This document shows positions 5,936 to 31,421 of a stretch of 64,000 bases of DNA, piece by piece. Each line of letters starts with the position of its first letter. The stretch's first letter is position 1. The notes below the pieces were generated by a model. It was given only the letters and a program-made list of their open reading frames with translations, did no database searches and was not told the DNA's origin. The translations under genes and the position numbers were made by a program. Source of the stretch: Desulfitobacterium dehalogenans ATCC 51507 (GTDB lineage: Bacteria > Bacillota > Desulfitobacteriia > Desulfitobacteriales > Desulfitobacteriaceae); NCBI RefSeq assembly GCF_000243155.2, contig NC_018017.1, positions 62,001-126,000 on the forward strand. Direction: 5' to 3'.

Positions 5936-7702
5936 TTGAAAAGTATCAGGGCACGTCTAACGTTAGCATTTATCTTGACATCAGTACTAATGAGCATTGT
6001 TGTTGGGGGCTATAATATTTACCGGCAGATGGATATGGTAGAAAAGAATGTAGCAACCTACAGGGAGACCCTCTTTGCCGAATACGACCGGGGAATTAAA
6101 ACGGATGTAGAAATTGCTATCAGCGTCATTGAGAAGGTATATAAGGAACAGCAAGGAGGTTTGCTCACAGAGGAAGAGGCTAAGGTCAAGGCCGCCGACT
6201 TAGTTCGGGATCTTCGCTTTGAAGGGGAGAATTACTTCTGGGTCGATACCACTGAAGGAATTAATGTGGTTCTTCTGGGGCGGGATACAGAAGGAAAAAG
6301 TCGTCTTGATGCGGTAGATCCGAACGGTTATGCTTATGTGCGGGATGGATTTGTTAAAAATGCACTGGCTGGTGGGGGCTTCTCCAATTATGAATTTGCC
6401 AAACCCAATGAGACGGAGCCTAAACCCAAGAGAGGGTATACCCAGCTCTTTGAACCCTATGGCTGGGTGGTAGGAACCGGCAACTGGGTGGACGATATTG
6501 AGGTGGAGGTTGTTAAACAAGAGCTGATCTATCAAGATCAGATGTTAAATGATATTATCCGGATTGCCGTCGCCATGATTTTGGGTTTAGCCCTGGTGAG
6601 TGCATTTGCCTTTAAGCTTAGCCAGAATTTCGCCAGGAGAATTAAAATCGTGGCACAGGGCGCCAATGAAATTGCACAGGGCAATCTAAATATTGAGAAA
6701 ATCCAAGTGGATTCACAGGATGAACTGGGTCAATTGGCTCAAGATTTTAACCATATGACGGAGAATCTTATTCAATTGGTCAAACAGGTTTCTCTGGCTT
6801 CGGAACACATCGCCTCTTCTTCTCAACAATTATCTGCTGGGGCCGAACAATCAGCCCAGGCTTCTAATGAGGTAGCAGGTGCTATCACTGAGGTTGCACA
6901 GGGGACAGAAAAGCAGATGACCGCAGTGAATGATGTGGCTGCCGTGGTGGAAGAAATGGCAGCGGGAATGGGGCAAGTGTTAAACAATACGGAATATGTG
7001 GTTCGTTCAGCTGAGGGAACAGCAAAAGCCACCGAGAAAGGTCAACAATCTATCCATACAACCATTAATCAAATGGACCATATCCAAAAAGCGGTTAATC
7101 ATAGTGCTTCTTTAGTGGAGCAACTGGGTATTCGTTCCCAAGAAATTGGACAGATCGTTGAGGCCATCTCCGGGATCGCGGATCAGACCAATCTTTTGGC
7201 TCTCAATGCAGCTATCGAAGCAGCACGGGCCGGAGAACAAGGAAGAGGATTTGCGGTGGTTGCTGAAGAGGTTCGGAAGCTGGCTGAGCAATCCCAGATT
7301 GCAGCGAAACAAATAGCCGATCTCATTGGGGAGATTCAAGAGGATACCCATAAAGCTGTAGACTCTATGAAGAATGGAACACAAGAGGTTGAGATAGGGT
7401 CCAAGGTGGTCTATGAGGCAGGCAGCGCTTTTGAAGAGATTGCCAGGCTTATTCAAGAGGTCACCGAGCAAGTTCGGGGTATCTCCCATGAGATTGAGGA
7501 AATTTCCCATGGCAATGAACGGATTGTTTCCTCCATTCATGAAGTCAATCAGATCAGCAAATCCATTGCCGAACAGACTCTCAATGTGTCGGCTTCGACT
7601 GAGGAGCAATCAGCCTCTGTGGAAGAGATCGCCTCCTCCAGCCAAATGCTGGCCAAAATGACAGAGGATATGGAGCAGGCACTTCGTAGATTCAAGATAT
7701 AA
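5936..7702 (+). CDS. Methyl-accepting chemotaxis protein, Cache-HAMP-MA (paralog 2)
   Basis: The 588-residue protein has exactly the length and architecture of the preceding receptor: TM1, Cache sensor with [10 protein letters not shown] and [15 protein letters not shown]2, HAMP, and a signalling domain with [18 protein letters not shown]. The TTG start at 5936 follows AGAGAGGAGC. The signalling half is nearly identical to paralog 1, while the sensor half differs more (for example [11 protein letters not shown] versus [11 protein letters not shown]). This suggests ligand diversification after tandem duplication. Relics downstream show that the duplicated block once extended further. Confidence 0.93.
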
Positions 7703-25748: not shown

Positions 25749-26140
25749 GCGTGGATTATATCTATCAAAGCTCTCACTTGGTTTTCCTCTATTTTAATAA
25801 CAGGGATGAATTGATAATAACACCCACCGATCCCACATTGTGTACCAAGGGGCCCACGACAAGTCCGAGATGCCTTAACATAGTCAAAAGAGTAAGAGCA
25901 GGAAGAGAGAAAAAGAATAGTTCTCTTTTTTCATCCTCGAAAAATGTTATCAGTAAAGTTTTCGGGAATCGGCAATTGAGCCAAAGCAAATTACGACACA
26001 ATAAACTAAATTTCGATAGAGGAAAAATAAGTAAAATAGAGAAGTACAGTGAGTATAGGATCAAGCTGAAGGACATCTTTGTAATTAAGCGACACTGTGG
26101 AAAACTGTAGGTTACGTTTTAATCAGAAAGGGGTTTTAAG
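25749..26140. other. Leader region before the comX-like gene
   Basis: 392 bp of AT-rich DNA without an intact gene. It contains a short P-type ATPase relic on the minus strand (separate entry) and presumably the comX promoter. The ribosome site AAAGGGG lies at about 26129-26134. No B. subtilis-type ComA box (TTGCGG, 4 bp, CCGCAA) was found. Confidence 0.5.
25789..25881 (-). pseudogene. C-terminal relic of a heavy-metal P-type ATPase
   Basis: About 30 codons on the minus strand read LRHLGLVVGPLVHNVGSVG followed by VIINSSLLLK and a stop. Heavy-metal-transporting P-type ATPases end with a helix of the form LLHN.GS..V..NS..LL. No ATPase sequence is visible upstream in this frame, so only a tail remains. 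It may mark an insertion or deletion boundary at the left edge of the com-like locus. Confidence 0.45.
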
Positions 26141-26338
26141 ATGAATTATGCAGCTATCGCGAATTTGGTCCATGAATCTGTCAAAAATCCCACGCGTTTG
26201 GTAACGCAAGATGAAAAGTCGGACGAAAGCAAAATAAAGCCTGGCGAATTTTCTGTTATTCAAAATGTATTTTCCCGGCATGAAGTATCCGGGGGCACTG
26301 TAGCGATTGGACCCACTCCTCTAGATTTGTGGTGGTAA
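26141..26338 (+). CDS. comX: ComX-like quorum-sensing pheromone precursor
   Basis: The 65-residue peptide has no signal sequence and ends PTPLDLWW. ComX pheromones come from the C-terminus of short, poorly conserved precursors and carry a prenylated Trp close to the C-terminus; two adjacent C-terminal Trp residues fit that requirement. The next gene is a ComQ-type prenyl transferase, then a ComP-like kinase and a ComA-like regulator. The ATG at 26141 has AAAGGGG 6-7 nt upstream. The stop at 26338 is 5 bp from the comQ ATG, so translation is probably coupled. In B. subtilis comX follows comQ; here it precedes it. The mature peptide length cannot be told. The call rests on context and the terminal Trp. 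Confidence 0.72.
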   Translation: MNYAAIANLVHESVKNPTRLVTQDEKSDESKIKPGEFSVIQNVFSRHEVSGGTVAIGPTPLDLWW

Positions 26339-26343
26339 ATTTG

Positions 26344-27300
26344 ATGAACCTTCAGCTTGACCAGATTTTTTTAAAAGAAATCGATAGTACTTTGACAAAA
26401 GTTCGGCTGGGTGCGGAAATGGATCGAATGATCCGCGCATGCCTCAATGCCGACAGCCCTACGGGGGAATTGTTTCGCTGGGCCCATTTAACGCGTATGA
26501 GTTGTGAATGTGCGGGCGGGGAGTTGGAAGCTGTGCTGCCGGGTGCCATTGGGATGGAGTTTTTTGCTCTGGCCTTGGATATTTTCGATGACGTGCAGGA
26601 CCAGGATAATGAGCATATGCCCTGGCGCCAGCTTCCGGACGCTCAGGCCATCAATCTGGCCATCTGCCTGCTCATGCTCAGTGATGAGGCCATTTCCGTC
26701 ATCCCGGACAACAGGATGCTTCGAGAAGTTGCGGCAACCTTACACTGTACAGGAATACGCGCCAGCCATGGGCAATTTCAGGAGTTTTTATTTGATGGCC
26801 GGCAACAGGTGTCTTTTGAGCAATATTTTGAGATGGCGGAACAAAAGGCCGGAAGTTTGGCTGCCTGTGCCTGTAGAATCGGAGCCGTCTTAGGCGGTGC
26901 AGAAGAAACGGTGGTCCATTCATTGGAACAGTTTGGGATAAGCCTTGGGATCCTGAATCAAATCAAAAACGATTTAAATGATTTCCTGGATTTTTCCAGA
27001 AAAAAAGATTTTGTGAATAATAAAAAAACCCTGCCCTATGTTTACCTGTTAAATACCCTTAAAGATGAAACCGCCGAGCGGTTTAAAGAGCTGACGCAAG
27101 GGGGTAGCGAAGGATCGCACGGGTTCGGGGATAAAGAAAGGGAATATGTCAGGCAGCTGGCTGCTGAAGAAGGCGTTTCGCAATACTGTACCGTGATGTT
27201 TGAAATCTATTGCCAAAAAGCGAGGGAAATTTTGGAGGGAATTCCTGTTCCCGAAAAGTATAAGGAGAACATGAAAGAACTTGTTGGAGAAAGTGTTTAA
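26344..27300 (+). CDS. comQ: ComQ-type isoprenyl transferase (pheromone-modifying)
   Basis: The 318-residue protein is a divergent polyprenyl synthase. The first Asp-rich motif is FALALDIFDDVQDQDNEH (about residue 75-92) and the second, shortened motif is LNQIKNDLNDFLDFSRKKD (about 205-225). ComQ enzymes keep the first motif and use a prenyl diphosphate to modify a Trp in ComX. Many Cys residues and low similarity to housekeeping IspA argue against general prenyl synthesis. The start is ATG 26344, TTG 26341 or GTG 26329; all are close to the comX stop and lack an independent strong ribosome site, which supports coupling. The 3' end overlaps comP by about 20 bp. Confidence 0.82.
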   Translation: MNLQLDQIFLKEIDSTLTKVRLGAEMDRMIRACLNADSPTGELFRWAHLTRMSCECAGGELEAVLPGAIGMEFFALALDIFDDVQDQDNEHMPWRQLPDAQAINLAICLLMLSDEAISVIPDNRMLREVAATLHCTGIRASHGQFQEFLFDGRQQVSFEQYFEMAEQKAGSLAACACRIGAVLGGAEETVVHSLEQFGISLGILNQIKNDLNDFLDFSRKKDFVNNKKTLPYVYLLNTLKDETAERFKELTQGGSEGSHGFGDKEREYVRQLAAEEGVSQYCTVMFEIYCQKAREILEGIPVPEKYKENMKELVGESV

Positions 27301-29635
27301 ACGGCAAATTTATTATATTGCCAGTATTGTCTTTATTGTGTTGGGGTTGGGATATTTTGCTGCTTGTCTGACCCAACCCTTCATAGGTCTCGGGCTTAAG
27401 AACATCAATGGACAATGGCTGGTGACAACCGCTAATCCTTATGGCGAGGGGTACCGGTCAGGTATCCAGGTGGGGGACGAAATCCTGAAAATCAACGGGG
27501 TGAATGCCGGTGGACACCGTTCTGTCCACAAATGGGAAGAGGCAGAAGGGGCTTCAACGGTTGAGTTTCGGAAACCGGATGAACTGACGGCCCAAACCGT
27601 TACTATATCCAAACAACCTGCTCTGTTGATGGTATTTAGCGAAGCCCCTCTGGTCATCCTGGGGTTTACTTTTTGGTTTTTAGGGTTTATGACCTGGTAC
27701 AAGCGTCCTTTTTTGGAACAGGCGCGCACCTTATTTTGGATGAATTGGATAATTGGCCTGGCGATTGTCTTAGCACACGCTTCCAGCCGTTGTTTATTAT
27801 TGGCTAAAGAATTGGAGAGCATCACGTTTTCGTTGGTCCCTGTGTTCCTTATTGCTTTTATTTCAGTTTTTCCTGCCTATAATCAAAATAAAATAAATAA
27901 AATCAGCTACAAAATTACAATCATCCTATTCCTGACTATTCTTGGCTTATTATTCCTGCATTCTTTGGGTATTGTTCATCTCGTTAGCTTAATAAGAAGA
28001 TTAATGTTATTCAATATGATCATCGGCATTCTTTCTACGCTTTGGAATCTTGGATTACTCATAAAGCTGCCCAAAGATCATCCCAAAAAGAATGAAGTCG
28101 GTATTATCCTATTAGGGATTGGGATCGGCTTTTTACCGTTCGTATTATTGACCGCGTTTCCAATCATTTTAAATTTTGAACAATTGCTTTATACCCAAGT
28201 GAGTTCCTTGTTCGTAGCTGCTGTCCCAGTCTCTTTATACTATATAATTGTCAACAAATATTTGCCAGACAGCCGCCGGCTTTATGAAACAGCCCTTTCT
28301 TATATCGGTGCGGCAGCTATCCTGAGCCTGGTTGTTTTCCTGGCGCTTTTTTTCCTGCAAATCGTGCCCACGATCTATTTTGAAATCTATTCGGCTTTGC
28401 TGCTTTTCACATTACTGTCTATTCTTTGCTTTCATTTTATCCGGATTGGCATCAACAGGCTCTGGGAAAGAAGCCGCTTTTCCCAAGACAAACAAGCTTT
28501 CAAGCAGAAGATGGCTGCCCTGAATGAAAATCTCTCCTCTCTTTTGGCCGAGGATAGGATATTGGATGAGCTGATTAATAGCCTGGGCATTGACGGGATT
28601 TTTATGATTATGGAGAATGCACAGATCGGCTGTCTGAAAAAAGCGGCGGGACGTTTTAAGGAGAATCCCAGGGAATTGGAGATGCTGGAGAACTTTTTTT
28701 ATCAGAATCAAAGGCTTGATCTGGAAGCCAAAATGCTGCCCGACGACTGCCCGGCCGGGATTTATGTCCCATTTATTGCCCAAGACTCTACCTGCGGAAT
28801 TTTCTTTGGCCGGCGTTCTTCCCGCATCAAATTTGAGCAATCGGAATTGCCTTTTCTTACCCTGCTGGCCGGTCAGTTGCAGTATCAGATCATTATGTCG
28901 CTGGTGATCGGCGAGCTGACCAAAGAAATACATTTCCTGACCAAAAGTTCCGGGCGTTCACAGCGAAGAAAAATGGAGCTCCAGGGAATCACCAACGCGT
29001 TGTTCCGTAAGGATGAGCAAAAAAGGAAACTCCTCACCGACGAAATCTGCGCCGGTCCCTTGCAGTGGAGCATGGACCTGAGCCGGTGGCTGAAATACCT
29101 GAAAACGGAATGCCCCGCCGACGACAAGACGCTGAAGGTGATTTCTTATCTGCAGGAACGAGCGGAGGATCTGAATTATGAACTCAATGGTATTGTCAAT
29201 GCTTGGGGCCCCCCGATTCTAACCCACCTGGGACTGGTTCCTGCAGTTCAATGGCTGTGTCAGAAAATCATGACAGAAGAATTGTCCCTGATTTCTCTGA
29301 AAATCAGCGGACTGGACCATCAAAGCCGGCTTAAAGAGGATGTGGAAGTCACCGCCTATCGTTTTTTACAGGAAGGGATCATGAACTCGGTGCGGCACTC
29401 CGGCTCCAATATGCAAACAGTTCACATAGCCCTGAACGAAACCGGGCTTGAATTGACAGTAAGTGATTCCGGCCGGGGCTTTGACGCCGACCAGATAGAA
29501 AACTGGTTATTGACAGGGACCCACTTCGGCCTGGCTGAAATGAAGGAGCGCATTGATAGCCTGGATGGGGAACTTCAGATCATTTCGGGAATAAACCGCG
29601 GAACAACGCTTAAGGCGCTTATCCCAGTTTTATAA
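27281..29635 (+). CDS. comP: ComP-like sensor histidine kinase with degenerate H-box
   Basis: The 784-residue membrane protein has TM1 (about 12-32), then an extracytoplasmic PDZ-like segment (about 38-105, with GYRSGIQVGDEILKINGVNAG). About seven further helices follow (115-385), then a cytoplasmic GAF-like linker and a C-terminal NarL-type kinase region. This is the ComP layout. The ATPase domain is intact: FLQEGIMNSVRHSG (N-box), VSDSGRGFD (G1) and HFGLAEMKERI (G2). The H-box reads KLLTDEICAGPLQ where relatives have E-[LI]-H-D-x-x-x-Q. Cys (codon 29048-29050, residue 590) replaces the phospho-His and Ala the following Asp. The TTG at 27281 overlaps comQ; a GTG at 27293 is possible. Confidence 0.82.
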   Translation: MLEKVFKRQIYYIASIVFIVLGLGYFAACLTQPFIGLGLKNINGQWLVTTANPYGEGYRSGIQVGDEILKINGVNAGGHRSVHKWEEAEGASTVEFRKPDELTAQTVTISKQPALLMVFSEAPLVILGFTFWFLGFMTWYKRPFLEQARTLFWMNWIIGLAIVLAHASSRCLLLAKELESITFSLVPVFLIAFISVFPAYNQNKINKISYKITIILFLTILGLLFLHSLGIVHLVSLIRRLMLFNMIIGILSTLWNLGLLIKLPKDHPKKNEVGIILLGIGIGFLPFVLLTAFPIILNFEQLLYTQVSSLFVAAVPVSLYYIIVNKYLPDSRRLYETALSYIGAAAILSLVVFLALFFLQIVPTIYFEIYSALLLFTLLSILCFHFIRIGINRLWERSRFSQDKQAFKQKMAALNENLSSLLAEDRILDELINSLGIDGIFMIMENAQIGCLKKAAGRFKENPRELEMLENFFYQNQRLDLEAKMLPDDCPAGIYVPFIAQDSTCGIFFGRRSSRIKFEQSELPFLTLLAGQLQYQIIMSLVIGELTKEIHFLTKSSGRSQRRKMELQGITNALFRKDEQKRKLLTDEICAGPLQWSMDLSRWLKYLKTECPADDKTLKVISYLQERAEDLNYELNGIVNAWGPPILTHLGLVPAVQWLCQKIMTEELSLISLKISGLDHQSRLKEDVEVTAYRFLQEGIMNSVRHSGSNMQTVHIALNETGLELTVSDSGRGFDADQIENWLLTGTHFGLAEMKERIDSLDGELQIISGINRGTTLKALIPVL

Positions 29636-29687
29636 TGTGAAAACCCACATCGGGACCCCAAATATGGATGAAGGCGCGTGAGATAGG

Positions 29688-30374
29688 ATGTCCATTCATT
29701 GGGAAAAATCAAAAGAGACAGAAGAACAGGTACATTTGCTCATCGTGGACAGTCACCGGCCTTTTGCGGAAGGGACCAGGGCGTTGCTGTCTTTTGAACC
29801 GCGCATAGTGACCATCGGAATTGCCGGGGATAAAAATTCGTGTCTGAATTTTCTCTGTGATTCCGTGCCGGATGTTGTTTTATTGGATTTTTATCTTCCG
29901 GATATCGGCGGACTGGATTTAATGGATAAAATAAAAGCGGCCCACCCCGATCTAAAGGTTATTCTGATGGTGGAACAAAGCCAGGAGGGCTATGTTCTGG
30001 CGGCAAGCCGGAAAGGAGCCGAAGGGCTGTTGTTGAAAACCTGTGCCGTCGAGGAAATGATACAGGCTGTCTTAAGCGTGTCTAAAGGGGGCGTATATTT
30101 TTCTCCAAGCCCGTCGGCGTTTCCCAAAGTTGAAATAGATTTCAATGATTTGTATTTCCCTGTGAAGCCTGCCGAAGTTCTTAAAAGGCTGTTAACGCCT
30201 CGAGAAAAAGAAATTATGTGCCTTTTAACAAAGGGTCTCCATAACAGAGAGATTGCCGCAGCTTTAGGGATAACCGTCCGGGCGGCTCATCTTCAGGTGA
30301 AGATTATCCTTCTCAAATTTGGGGTCAACACACGTCTGGAAGCCGTCTTATCTTGGGCTTATGTTGACGGGTAA
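29688..30374 (+). CDS. comA: ComA-like response regulator (receiver plus LuxR-type HTH)
   Basis: The 228-residue NarL-family regulator has a receiver domain (about 15-130) and a LuxR-type HTH (about 165-225: LTPREKEIMCLLTKGLHNREIAAAL). The phospho-acceptor Asp (VVLLDFYLPD) and the conserved Lys (LLLKTCA) are present. The acidic pair is reduced to one Asp (LLIVDSHRPF), and the Thr/Ser switch position appears as Glu in VILMVEQSQ. These changes parallel the H-box loss in the neighbouring kinase and suggest non-canonical or phosphate-independent signalling. It lies 52 bp downstream of comP. DNA targets are unknown. Confidence 0.8.
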   Translation: MSIHWEKSKETEEQVHLLIVDSHRPFAEGTRALLSFEPRIVTIGIAGDKNSCLNFLCDSVPDVVLLDFYLPDIGGLDLMDKIKAAHPDLKVILMVEQSQEGYVLAASRKGAEGLLLKTCAVEEMIQAVLSVSKGGVYFSPSPSAFPKVEIDFNDLYFPVKPAEVLKRLLTPREKEIMCLLTKGLHNREIAAALGITVRAAHLQVKIILLKFGVNTRLEAVLSWAYVDG

Positions 30375-30493: not shown

Positions 30494-30528
30494 AAAGTGC
30501 GTTTCCAAATTACGGAAGCGCACTTTAT
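30494..30528. terminator. Terminator between comA and the convergent receiver gene
   Basis: AAAGTGCGTTTCC / GGAAGCGCACTTT (13-bp stem with one G-T pair, 6-nt loop) lies between convergent genes. A-runs on one side and T-rich DNA on the other allow termination from both directions. Confidence 0.7.
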
Positions 30529-30597: not shown

Positions 30598-30993
30598 CTA
30601 CCAGGAATTCCCTAGTGGTTTGCTGTCGCTTATTACCTTATCCAGGATGGCGTAGATATCTTCCATGTTGATCGGCTTCTCCAGGATTCTCAGCGGTGAG
30701 GCCTCCGCGAACTGTGGGTGAGCCCCAGATCCGGTGCAAAACACGATCTGACAGACCGTGTCATACTCCCGGATGCGCAGCGCTGTTTCCGCGCCGGAGA
30801 GCTTTTTCATACACTGGTCCAGGAAAATCAGATCGAAACGGATTTGCTCTTTCTCTGCTTGCCTTAGTAGCTCTTCGCCGCTCCCAAACTGGTGGATTTG
30901 AAACCGCACATTCCTCCCGGCTTCGTATTCCCTGATTATCTCCTCCAGTATCCGGCGCAGAAGCGGGATGTCGTCACATAGAGCGATTTTCAT
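30598..30993 (-). CDS. Stand-alone response-regulator receiver
   Basis: The 131-residue protein is only a receiver: MKIALCDD (acidic pair), LIFLDQCMKKLSG (phospho-acceptor Asp), VFCTGSG (Thr/Ser) and LEKPI (Lys). All catalytic residues are present and there is no output domain. The start resembles LytTR-type regulators, but the DNA-binding half is absent. It follows an XRE regulator by 59 bp on the same strand. No kinase is adjacent except the degenerate ComP-like protein 1 kb away. Confidence 0.85.
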   Translation of the reverse strand: MKIALCDDIPLLRRILEEIIREYEAGRNVRFQIHQFGSGEELLRQAEKEQIRFDLIFLDQCMKKLSGAETALRIREYDTVCQIVFCTGSGAHPQFAEASPLRILEKPINMEDIYAILDKVISDSKPLGNSW

Positions 30994-31052: not shown

Positions 31053-31421
31053 TTATTCCGGGCGTTCAGGCGGCTGAGCCTCTTGGGACTGAAGAGAGGA
31101 CAGGATTCGTCGCAATTCAATCATAGTGCTGTAAATGACATGTAGTTCATGCAGGGAACAGCTATTCAGGCTGCGTTCAATTTTACGCTGCAGCTCCCGC
31201 CCCTCCGTCCGCTCAGGAAAGAATACGGCATCCACGGAGAAATTGAGGAACCTGGCCAGCTTATACAGGACATCGACCGAAGGTTTCCGGCTGCCGGCTT
31301 CGAGCTGTTTCATATGGACAGTGGCAATATCCACCCGCTCGGCCAGTTCTTCCTGGGTTAAGTTGTTTTCTAAGCGGGCATTTTTGATGGCCCCGCCCAG
31401 CCTTTTGGGATTCAGCTCCAT
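31053..31421 (-). CDS. XRE-family HTH regulator
   Basis: The 122-residue protein has an N-terminal Cro/CI helix-turn-helix (LGGAIKNARLENNLTQEELAE, then VDIATVHMKQLEAGSRKPSVDVL). A helical C-terminal extension contains LQRKIERSLNSC and a Gln/Pro-rich tail. The ATG at 31421 follows GGAGG. It is probably co-transcribed with the receiver downstream. Its promoter region, shared with a second HTH gene reading right, contains short palindromes such as ATCCGCAGCGGAT (about 31455) that could be operators. Confidence 0.85.
   Translation of the reverse strand: MELNPKRLGGAIKNARLENNLTQEELAERVDIATVHMKQLEAGSRKPSVDVLYKLARFLNFSVDAVFFPERTEGRELQRKIERSLNSCSLHELHVIYSTMIELRRILSSLQSQEAQPPERPE

Follow-up and report, generated by a model that had tools for sequence, protein, structure and literature searches.

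We identified a four-gene locus with the order comX-comQ-comP-comA (XQPA) in a 64,000-nucleotide stretch of the Desulfitobacterium dehalogenans genome (the window; bases 62001-126000 of a 4,321,753-bp single contig). The locus very likely encodes ComX/Q/P-type signaling. The explanation that we favor as a whole, and consider fairly probable, is a prenyl-peptide quorum-sensing operon of an X-Q-P-A lineage that has been rebuilt on a pseudo-histidine kinase and a pseudo-receiver. All four genes are on the plus strand, with 5 nt separating comX from comQ and a 20-nt overlap between comQ and comP. The features (positions within the window) are as follows.

25992-25998, plus strand: TACGACA, resembling a Spo0A box (which reads TTCGACA in this orientation), 26 nt ahead of the -35 element
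26018-26046, plus strand: sigma-H-type promoter (predicted), with -35 AGAGGAAAA (26018-26026), an 11-nt spacer, and -10 AGAGAAGTA (26038-26046)
26059-26073, plus strand: leader word GATCAAGCTGAAGGA, conserved with G002 (same genus) and Dehalobacter-like loci and partly with comX-comP (X-P) cassettes
26141-26338, plus strand: comX, 65-aa pheromone precursor ending in PLDLWW; Trp64 invariant, last residue (Trp65) variable
26344-27300, plus strand: comQ, ComQ-type isoprenyl transferase; Asp-rich motifs DDVQDQD (first) and NDLND (second)
27281-29635, plus strand: comP, membrane receptor; TTG start; overlap with comQ also seen in relatives
27389-27604, plus strand: ComP PDZ domain, residues 37 to 108 (Pfam and AlphaFold)
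29048-29050, plus strand: ComP Cys590 codon at the phosphoacceptor-His position (DEICAGPLQ versus consensus EIHDGPLQ)
29345-29626, plus strand: ComP HATPase_c domain (Pfam); N, G1, and G2 boxes intact
29688-30374, plus strand: comA, NarL/LuxR-type regulator with a predicted pseudo-receiver (D21, S22, D67, V95, K117)
29751-29753, plus strand: ComA Ser22 codon, at the position of the second acidic residue (direct Mg2+ ligand) by alignment
30494-30526, plus strand: terminator-like hairpin 3' of comA (consensus match only)

The comQ start was placed at an ATG, as in homologues; an in-frame upstream GTG at 26329 would run into comX. The locus is flanked by prs on one side and by a conserved gene pair on the other. 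This pair lies just past comA on the opposite strand and encodes a stand-alone receiver-domain protein (30598-30993, minus strand) and an HTH regulator (31053-31421, minus strand); it also adjoins the locus in G002. An Rfam search returned no match, and no close relative was found in the plasmid and viral collections searched. The literature searched contained no relevant paper on quorum sensing in Desulfitobacterium or Dehalobacter.

We searched 101 genomes with ComQ and then read the flanks of the matches. The X-Q-P-A order was present in about 30 loci, which belonged to the same family and order, and in one outlying Bacillota metagenome-assembled genome (L137). The named relatives carrying the locus were mostly Desulfosporosinus. 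The initial annotation had described four codirectional, tightly spaced or overlapping genes with comX first; the open reading frames bear this out, the same four genes recur in the same order in these loci, and the X-first arrangement is real and ancient. Within the genus, G002 has the locus in the same neighborhood, and no XQPA locus was found in G003. The window genome itself contains a second X-Q-P-A locus outside the window (G000:C1, about 2655619-2659822; L103 and L189), with a ComQ of 37% identity and a ComX-like end of SQWA. In this second comP the His codon is still present, but a frameshift divides the gene into two frames (506 and 284 aa), whereas the His-less locus in the window is intact.

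Partial versions of the locus were also detected. X-P cassettes without comQ or comA were seen in L173, L175, L178, and L176, with a disrupted one in L172 (same bacterial order); these five come from G064, G047, G054, and G004. They imply that several peptide-receptor pairs may share a single prenyltransferase and a single regulator. The same bacterial order also includes one X-P-A set (L177) and P-A pairs with no adjacent X or Q, in L184 (G006), L185 (G014), and L186 (G028:C169). The G006 and G014 genomes gave no strong match to ComQ and none to the ComX family at any position. Such pairs could be receivers listening to the signals of others. In Paenibacillus and Chengkuizengella (L134, L136, L139, L140, and L141), the order is comP-comA-comQ, so that the prenyltransferase gene closes the set; in L134, L136, and L140, no gene for a peptide with a Trp near its end was seen 3' of comQ.

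Peptide and prenyltransferase

In an alignment of 28 XQPA peptides, Trp64 was present in all 28, and the last position was Gly, Val, Ala, Met, Phe, Ser, Glu, Gln, Trp, or absent. Because position 65 varies, Trp65 is simply the last residue of this strain. Residues 1 to 16 were conserved (mean majority identity, 0.74), while residues 53 to 63, before the end, were variable (0.42). The ComX-like frames of the X-P cassettes and of the second window-genome locus end in Trp-x, with one exception that lacks this end. A chance open reading frame was ruled out by the conservation in 28 of 28 peptides and by the comX dN/dS (0.24, window versus G002). The 65-aa peptide ending in Trp-Trp, as first described, therefore stands, and its frame and penultimate Trp are conserved. 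The proposal that the modified Trp is the last or the second to last residue can be narrowed: the penultimate Trp is conserved and presumably prenylated, whereas the terminal Trp occupies the variable position and is disfavored as the modified residue.

The window peptide did not match the Pfam ComX family (PF05952), and a single member of the 28 did so, at an E value of 0.14. With hhalign, the XQPA ComX profile was moderately similar to that of canonical clostridial ComX (E = 2.6e-5; probability, 75%), and the alignment of the two families paired an Asn-Pro motif and a Pro-Leu-x-x-Trp end. The earlier statement of no obvious similarity to Bacillus ComX apart from the C-terminal Trp thus holds for Pfam but not at the profile level, where clostridial ComX is recovered. 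The window precursor (65 aa) falls inside the B. subtilis precursor range (52 to 73 aa) and likewise has a Trp near the C terminus. A near-terminal Trp had been considered unlike known pheromones, in which residues follow the Trp; the contrast is not a marked one, given that the predicted canonical clostridial precursors end exactly in Trp, and here exactly one residue follows the conserved Trp.

The comQ product matched Pfam PF00348 (E = 1e-21). A tree of 55 sequences placed XQPA, QXPA, and Paenibacillus ComQ on one side (support, 100) and the housekeeping prenyl synthases of G000, G027, and G047 on the other. XQPA and QXPA ComQ each formed a branch of their own, and each lay at a large distance from the housekeeping synthases of these genomes. 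A housekeeping identity for the comQ product was ruled out by this tree, in agreement with the initial assignment to a ComQ-like prenyl transferase carrying DDVQDQD. The initial annotation had named two tests of its reading, grouping of ComQ with housekeeping enzymes and lack of conservation of the 65-aa frame; in the results, ComQ was set apart, and the frame and its penultimate Trp were kept.

The Pfam ComX family detected a separate locus in eight genomes of the same order; in every case in which a comQ was observed there, the genes ran Q-X-P-A. Six of these genomes (G020, G022, G027, G032, G039, and G052) carry both locus types. The coexistence of separate QXPA loci in the same genomes, the ComQ branches, and the peptide profiles together indicate that, on sequence evidence, XQPA is an old sister lineage of canonical comQXPA and not a local rearrangement. 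The main text of a 2014 census (PMC4008528) reports canonical comQXPA loci in Desulfosporosinus and Syntrophobotulus, calls the gene order conserved, and contains no X-first loci. These clostridial loci come from the same order and share homologous Q, P, and A proteins and peptide profile similarity with the window locus; unlike it, they are Q-X-P-A, match Pfam ComX, have a ComX ending in Trp, and retain the ComP His and the ComA acidic pair (DD), and their ComPs are 22 to 25% identical to that of the window.

The ComQXPA systems of B. subtilis and B. amyloliquefaciens resemble the window locus in having a short precursor with a C-terminal Trp, a ComQ-type prenyltransferase, a ComP with an extracytoplasmic PDZ domain, about 10 membrane helices, and an ATPase domain, and a NarL-type ComA. 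They differ from it in that the window has the X-Q-P-A order, a peptide without a Pfam ComX match and with one residue after the Trp, CAGPLQ in place of HDSVLQ in ComP (no phosphoacceptor His), and a ComA without the second Mg-binding acid.

Receptor and regulator

In the AlphaFold2 model of ComP (mean pLDDT, 77), a transmembrane helix is followed by an extracytoplasmic PDZ domain, about nine further membrane helices, a GAF-like domain, DHp helices, and an ATPase domain, the last two being kept. Sequence alone gives a weak PDZ match (Pfam E = 4e-4), but in the model the domain is folded, with strands and a helix at residues 37 to 108, which upholds the earlier view of a PDZ-containing polytopic ComP. 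The best matches in a fold search were only histidine-kinase and related signaling domains. The extracellular loop of B. amyloliquefaciens ComP has a PDZ fold, and its His571, which corresponds to the position considered here, is needed for autophosphorylation (PMC9620489).

Most XQPA ComPs have EIHDGPLQ or EIHDGSLQ as their H-box; that of the window is EICAGPLQ, with Cys590 at the His position and Ala replacing the acidic residue after it. We read this position from an alignment of 39 ComPs, which was ungapped there except for one gap just before it in L173. The residue was Cys in the window and L031 (same genus), Ser in L032, and Leu in L033, L034, L038, and L039, which look like Dehalobacter; the ComP of the X-P cassette L173, in one of the four Leu-type genomes, also has Leu. 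An alignment error was ruled out (ungapped apart from L173, and two Desulfitobacterium-type genomes agree), as was a sequencing error (Cys in two genomes, Leu in four). All eight ComPs of one clade lack the His, with 99% clade support in a tree built without that column. Further separate losses occurred in L042 (Tyr, as in DivL) and L176 (Asp), and the tree requires at least three losses. All eight His-less clade members retain intact N, G1, and G2 boxes; only L176 lost these as well. The H-box Gln595 is kept in the window, L031, and L032. The HisKA_3 profile matched 15 of 30 family ComPs and gave no match in the window ComP. The only ComP-family protein found in G002, G049, and G051 was the His-less one, and a ComP paralogue with the His therefore does not account for signaling in these genomes.

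The His is missing in only 0.3% of HisKA_3 domains (PMC12632262). By its sequence and model, the window ComP fits a pseudo-histidine kinase, that is, a predicted kinase architecture without the phosphoacceptor His. Caulobacter DivL and Corynebacterium ChrS are pseudo-histidine kinases that likewise keep the DHp and ATPase domains, are catalytically disabled, and still act in signaling; unlike them, the window pseudokinase is a predicted pheromone receptor encoded beside a pseudo-receiver.

In the XQPA loci of the His-less clade, every one of the seven ComAs (six aligned and that of G047 read separately) has Ser or Gly in place of the second acidic residue, a direct Mg2+ ligand, and the switch Thr was also lost in three of the seven (Val, Val, and Ala). 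Among the 21 other aligned ComAs, the second acid was lost in one (L045), whose ComP has the His. The window ComA deviates from a complete phosphorylation site at S22 (second acid) and V95 (Thr); Asp67 and Lys117 are retained in all aligned ComAs. A pseudo-receiver is defined by the absence of any one of five active-site residues (PMC12632262), and the ComAs of the His-less clade are predicted pseudo-receivers by this definition. The window ComA resembles other atypical response regulators (PMC12632262) in lacking at least one of the five residues, but most characterized pseudo-receivers are orphans, whereas this one shares an operon with a presumed partner that is itself His-less. The losses are not always paired: L042 (His to Tyr) keeps the acidic pair, and L045 keeps the His with the acid lost. 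Because the co-loss of His and acid is a single event in the tree, a statistical coupling cannot be claimed. The L042 region (G025:C1:131500-140000) has the His-to-Tyr XQPA ComP beside a complete ComA receiver, and a second XQPA locus of that genome keeps the His. In L034 (G047), comP is separated from comA by an inserted IS-like transposase gene (reverse complement, 6010-7299).

Between the window and L031, dN/dS was 0.24 for comX, 0.15 for comQ, 0.22 for comP (0.19 for its kinase part), and 0.22 for comA, and other pairs, both His-less and His-bearing, gave similar values. The His-less clade shows the signature of strong purifying selection, including on ComP, ComA, and the ATP pocket. The L038/L039 ComA receiver had a dN/dS of 0.55, on few changes, and local relaxation is possible there. 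For the window and L031, dS was 0.56 to 0.69 for comX, comQ, and the ComP sensor part and 0.28 to 0.30 for the ComP kinase part and comA; five upstream neighbor genes gave 0.31 to 0.43. Exchange or joint diversification of signal and receptor is known for B. subtilis pherotypes. The dS mosaic suggests that signal and receptor specificities are exchanged or are diversifying together, and it is only suggestive because the Dehalobacter-like pair L038/L039 shows the opposite pattern.

Promoter

His-bearing and His-less loci alike have a conserved 39-nt element 5' of comX, in which TTCGACA, a reversed Spo0A box, is placed 26 nt before RnAGGAwWW-N11-12-RnnGAATww, which is the sigma-H consensus. The sigma-H-type score was at least 13 in 26 of 31 comX upstream regions (shuffled sequences: mean, 4.5; maximum, 9). 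The Spo0A-box-like site was present at about the same spacing in roughly half of the 31, and the comX upstream regions of the Desulfosporosinus group L046 to L058 were without the box. Scanning 14 genomes with the element recovered mostly comX and, in Desulfosporosinus, also comEA-comEC. In G000, G002, and G003, the promoter of comEA carries this box too, equally spaced. That G003 has it at comEA while being without an XQPA locus favors a Spo0A (or other core) site over one for ComA and disfavors the element as an operator of the XQPA ComA. The pheromone and DNA-uptake genes thus share a predicted stationary-phase promoter type. A 0A-box-like site 26 nt before a sigma-H-type promoter of comEA-comEC was seen in L217, L223, L225, L226, L258 to L263, and L265. 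Two gapped-pattern scans for more regulon members gave chance-level matches, and the spacing used missed the known site.

Signal transfer

Because ComP lacks the His and ComA lacks the Mg2+-binding acid, standard phosphotransfer from ComP~P to ComA should be unable to occur, and we are nearly certain, judging from these residues, that the window ComP performs no phosphotransfer. The initial assignment of a ComP-like kinase and a ComA-like regulator is therefore retained for the receptor architecture but not for a ComP-ComA phosphorelay. If so, the signal must go by another route or not via ComP. We propose that stationary-phase transcription from the sigma-H-type promoter would yield the 65-aa precursor, that ComQ would prenylate Trp64, that a C-terminal piece ending in Trp(prenyl)-Trp would be released, and that the PDZ and membrane-helix part of ComP would bind it, as expected from family knowledge. 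Binding would change the nucleotide-dependent conformation of ComP, and ComP would then control ComA not through phosphate but by touching it directly, whether to release, sequester, or allosterically activate it. Control of ComA by contact is a tentative proposal, to which we give not quite even chances. Slightly more tentative is the full circuit, in which signaling without phosphoryl transfer was selected in several genera and ATP binding serves only as a conformational switch.

An unlikely competitor is that ComA is still phosphorylated on Asp, by another kinase or a small-molecule donor, and that ComP is only a pheromone-controlled phosphatase or binding partner. The retention of Asp67 and Lys117 in all aligned ComAs and of Gln595 in the window, L031, and L032 fits this, as does the finding that the His is dispensable for HisKA_3 phosphatase activity (PMC12632262); the loss of the direct Mg2+ ligand in all seven clade ComAs, with the switch Thr also gone in three, and the Ala after the His position of the window ComP speak against it. 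Less likely again is that ComP forms a heterodimer with a different histidine kinase that has its His, an arrangement described for the ChrS pseudokinase and HrrS (PMC9491836). The intact ATP domain could phosphorylate a partner in trans, and the second X-Q-P-A locus of the window genome encodes a His-keeping ComP, but that comP is frameshifted, a second ComP-family protein is absent from G002, G049, and G051, and ComA would still lack its Mg2+ ligand.

Early decay, with the output half dying and comX and comQ kept for another reason or not yet lost, is improbable. Catalytic residues have been lost, the second window-genome comP is frameshifted, and a transposase interrupts the G047 locus; against this, the frames are intact in two genera and one further lineage, dN/dS is well below 1 (kinase part included), the promoter is conserved, and the ATP motifs were kept after the His position diversified to Cys, Ser, and Leu. 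We give very little credence to a nonpheromone system in which a small isoprenoid is the product of the prenyl synthase and the short frame is incidental. The peptide has no Pfam ComX match, and ComQ is a diverged polyprenyl synthase, but the frame, its start region, and the penultimate Trp are kept in 28 of 28 peptides and also in comQ-less X-P cassettes, comX has a dN/dS of 0.24, and ComQ groups with QXPA ComQ, away from housekeeping enzymes.

The activation of bacterial pseudo-receivers has been called a mystery, and nearly all characterized ones are orphans (PMC12632262). Here, the genes for a predicted pseudo-receiver and its presumed pseudokinase partner are neighbors, the presumed ligand is encoded in the same operon, and close His-bearing relatives are at hand for comparison, so phosphate-free two-component signaling would be directly testable. 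The analysis also adds a second lineage of ComX, in which comX comes first, as well as X-P cassettes that lack comQ and a predicted promoter architecture shared with the DNA-uptake operon.
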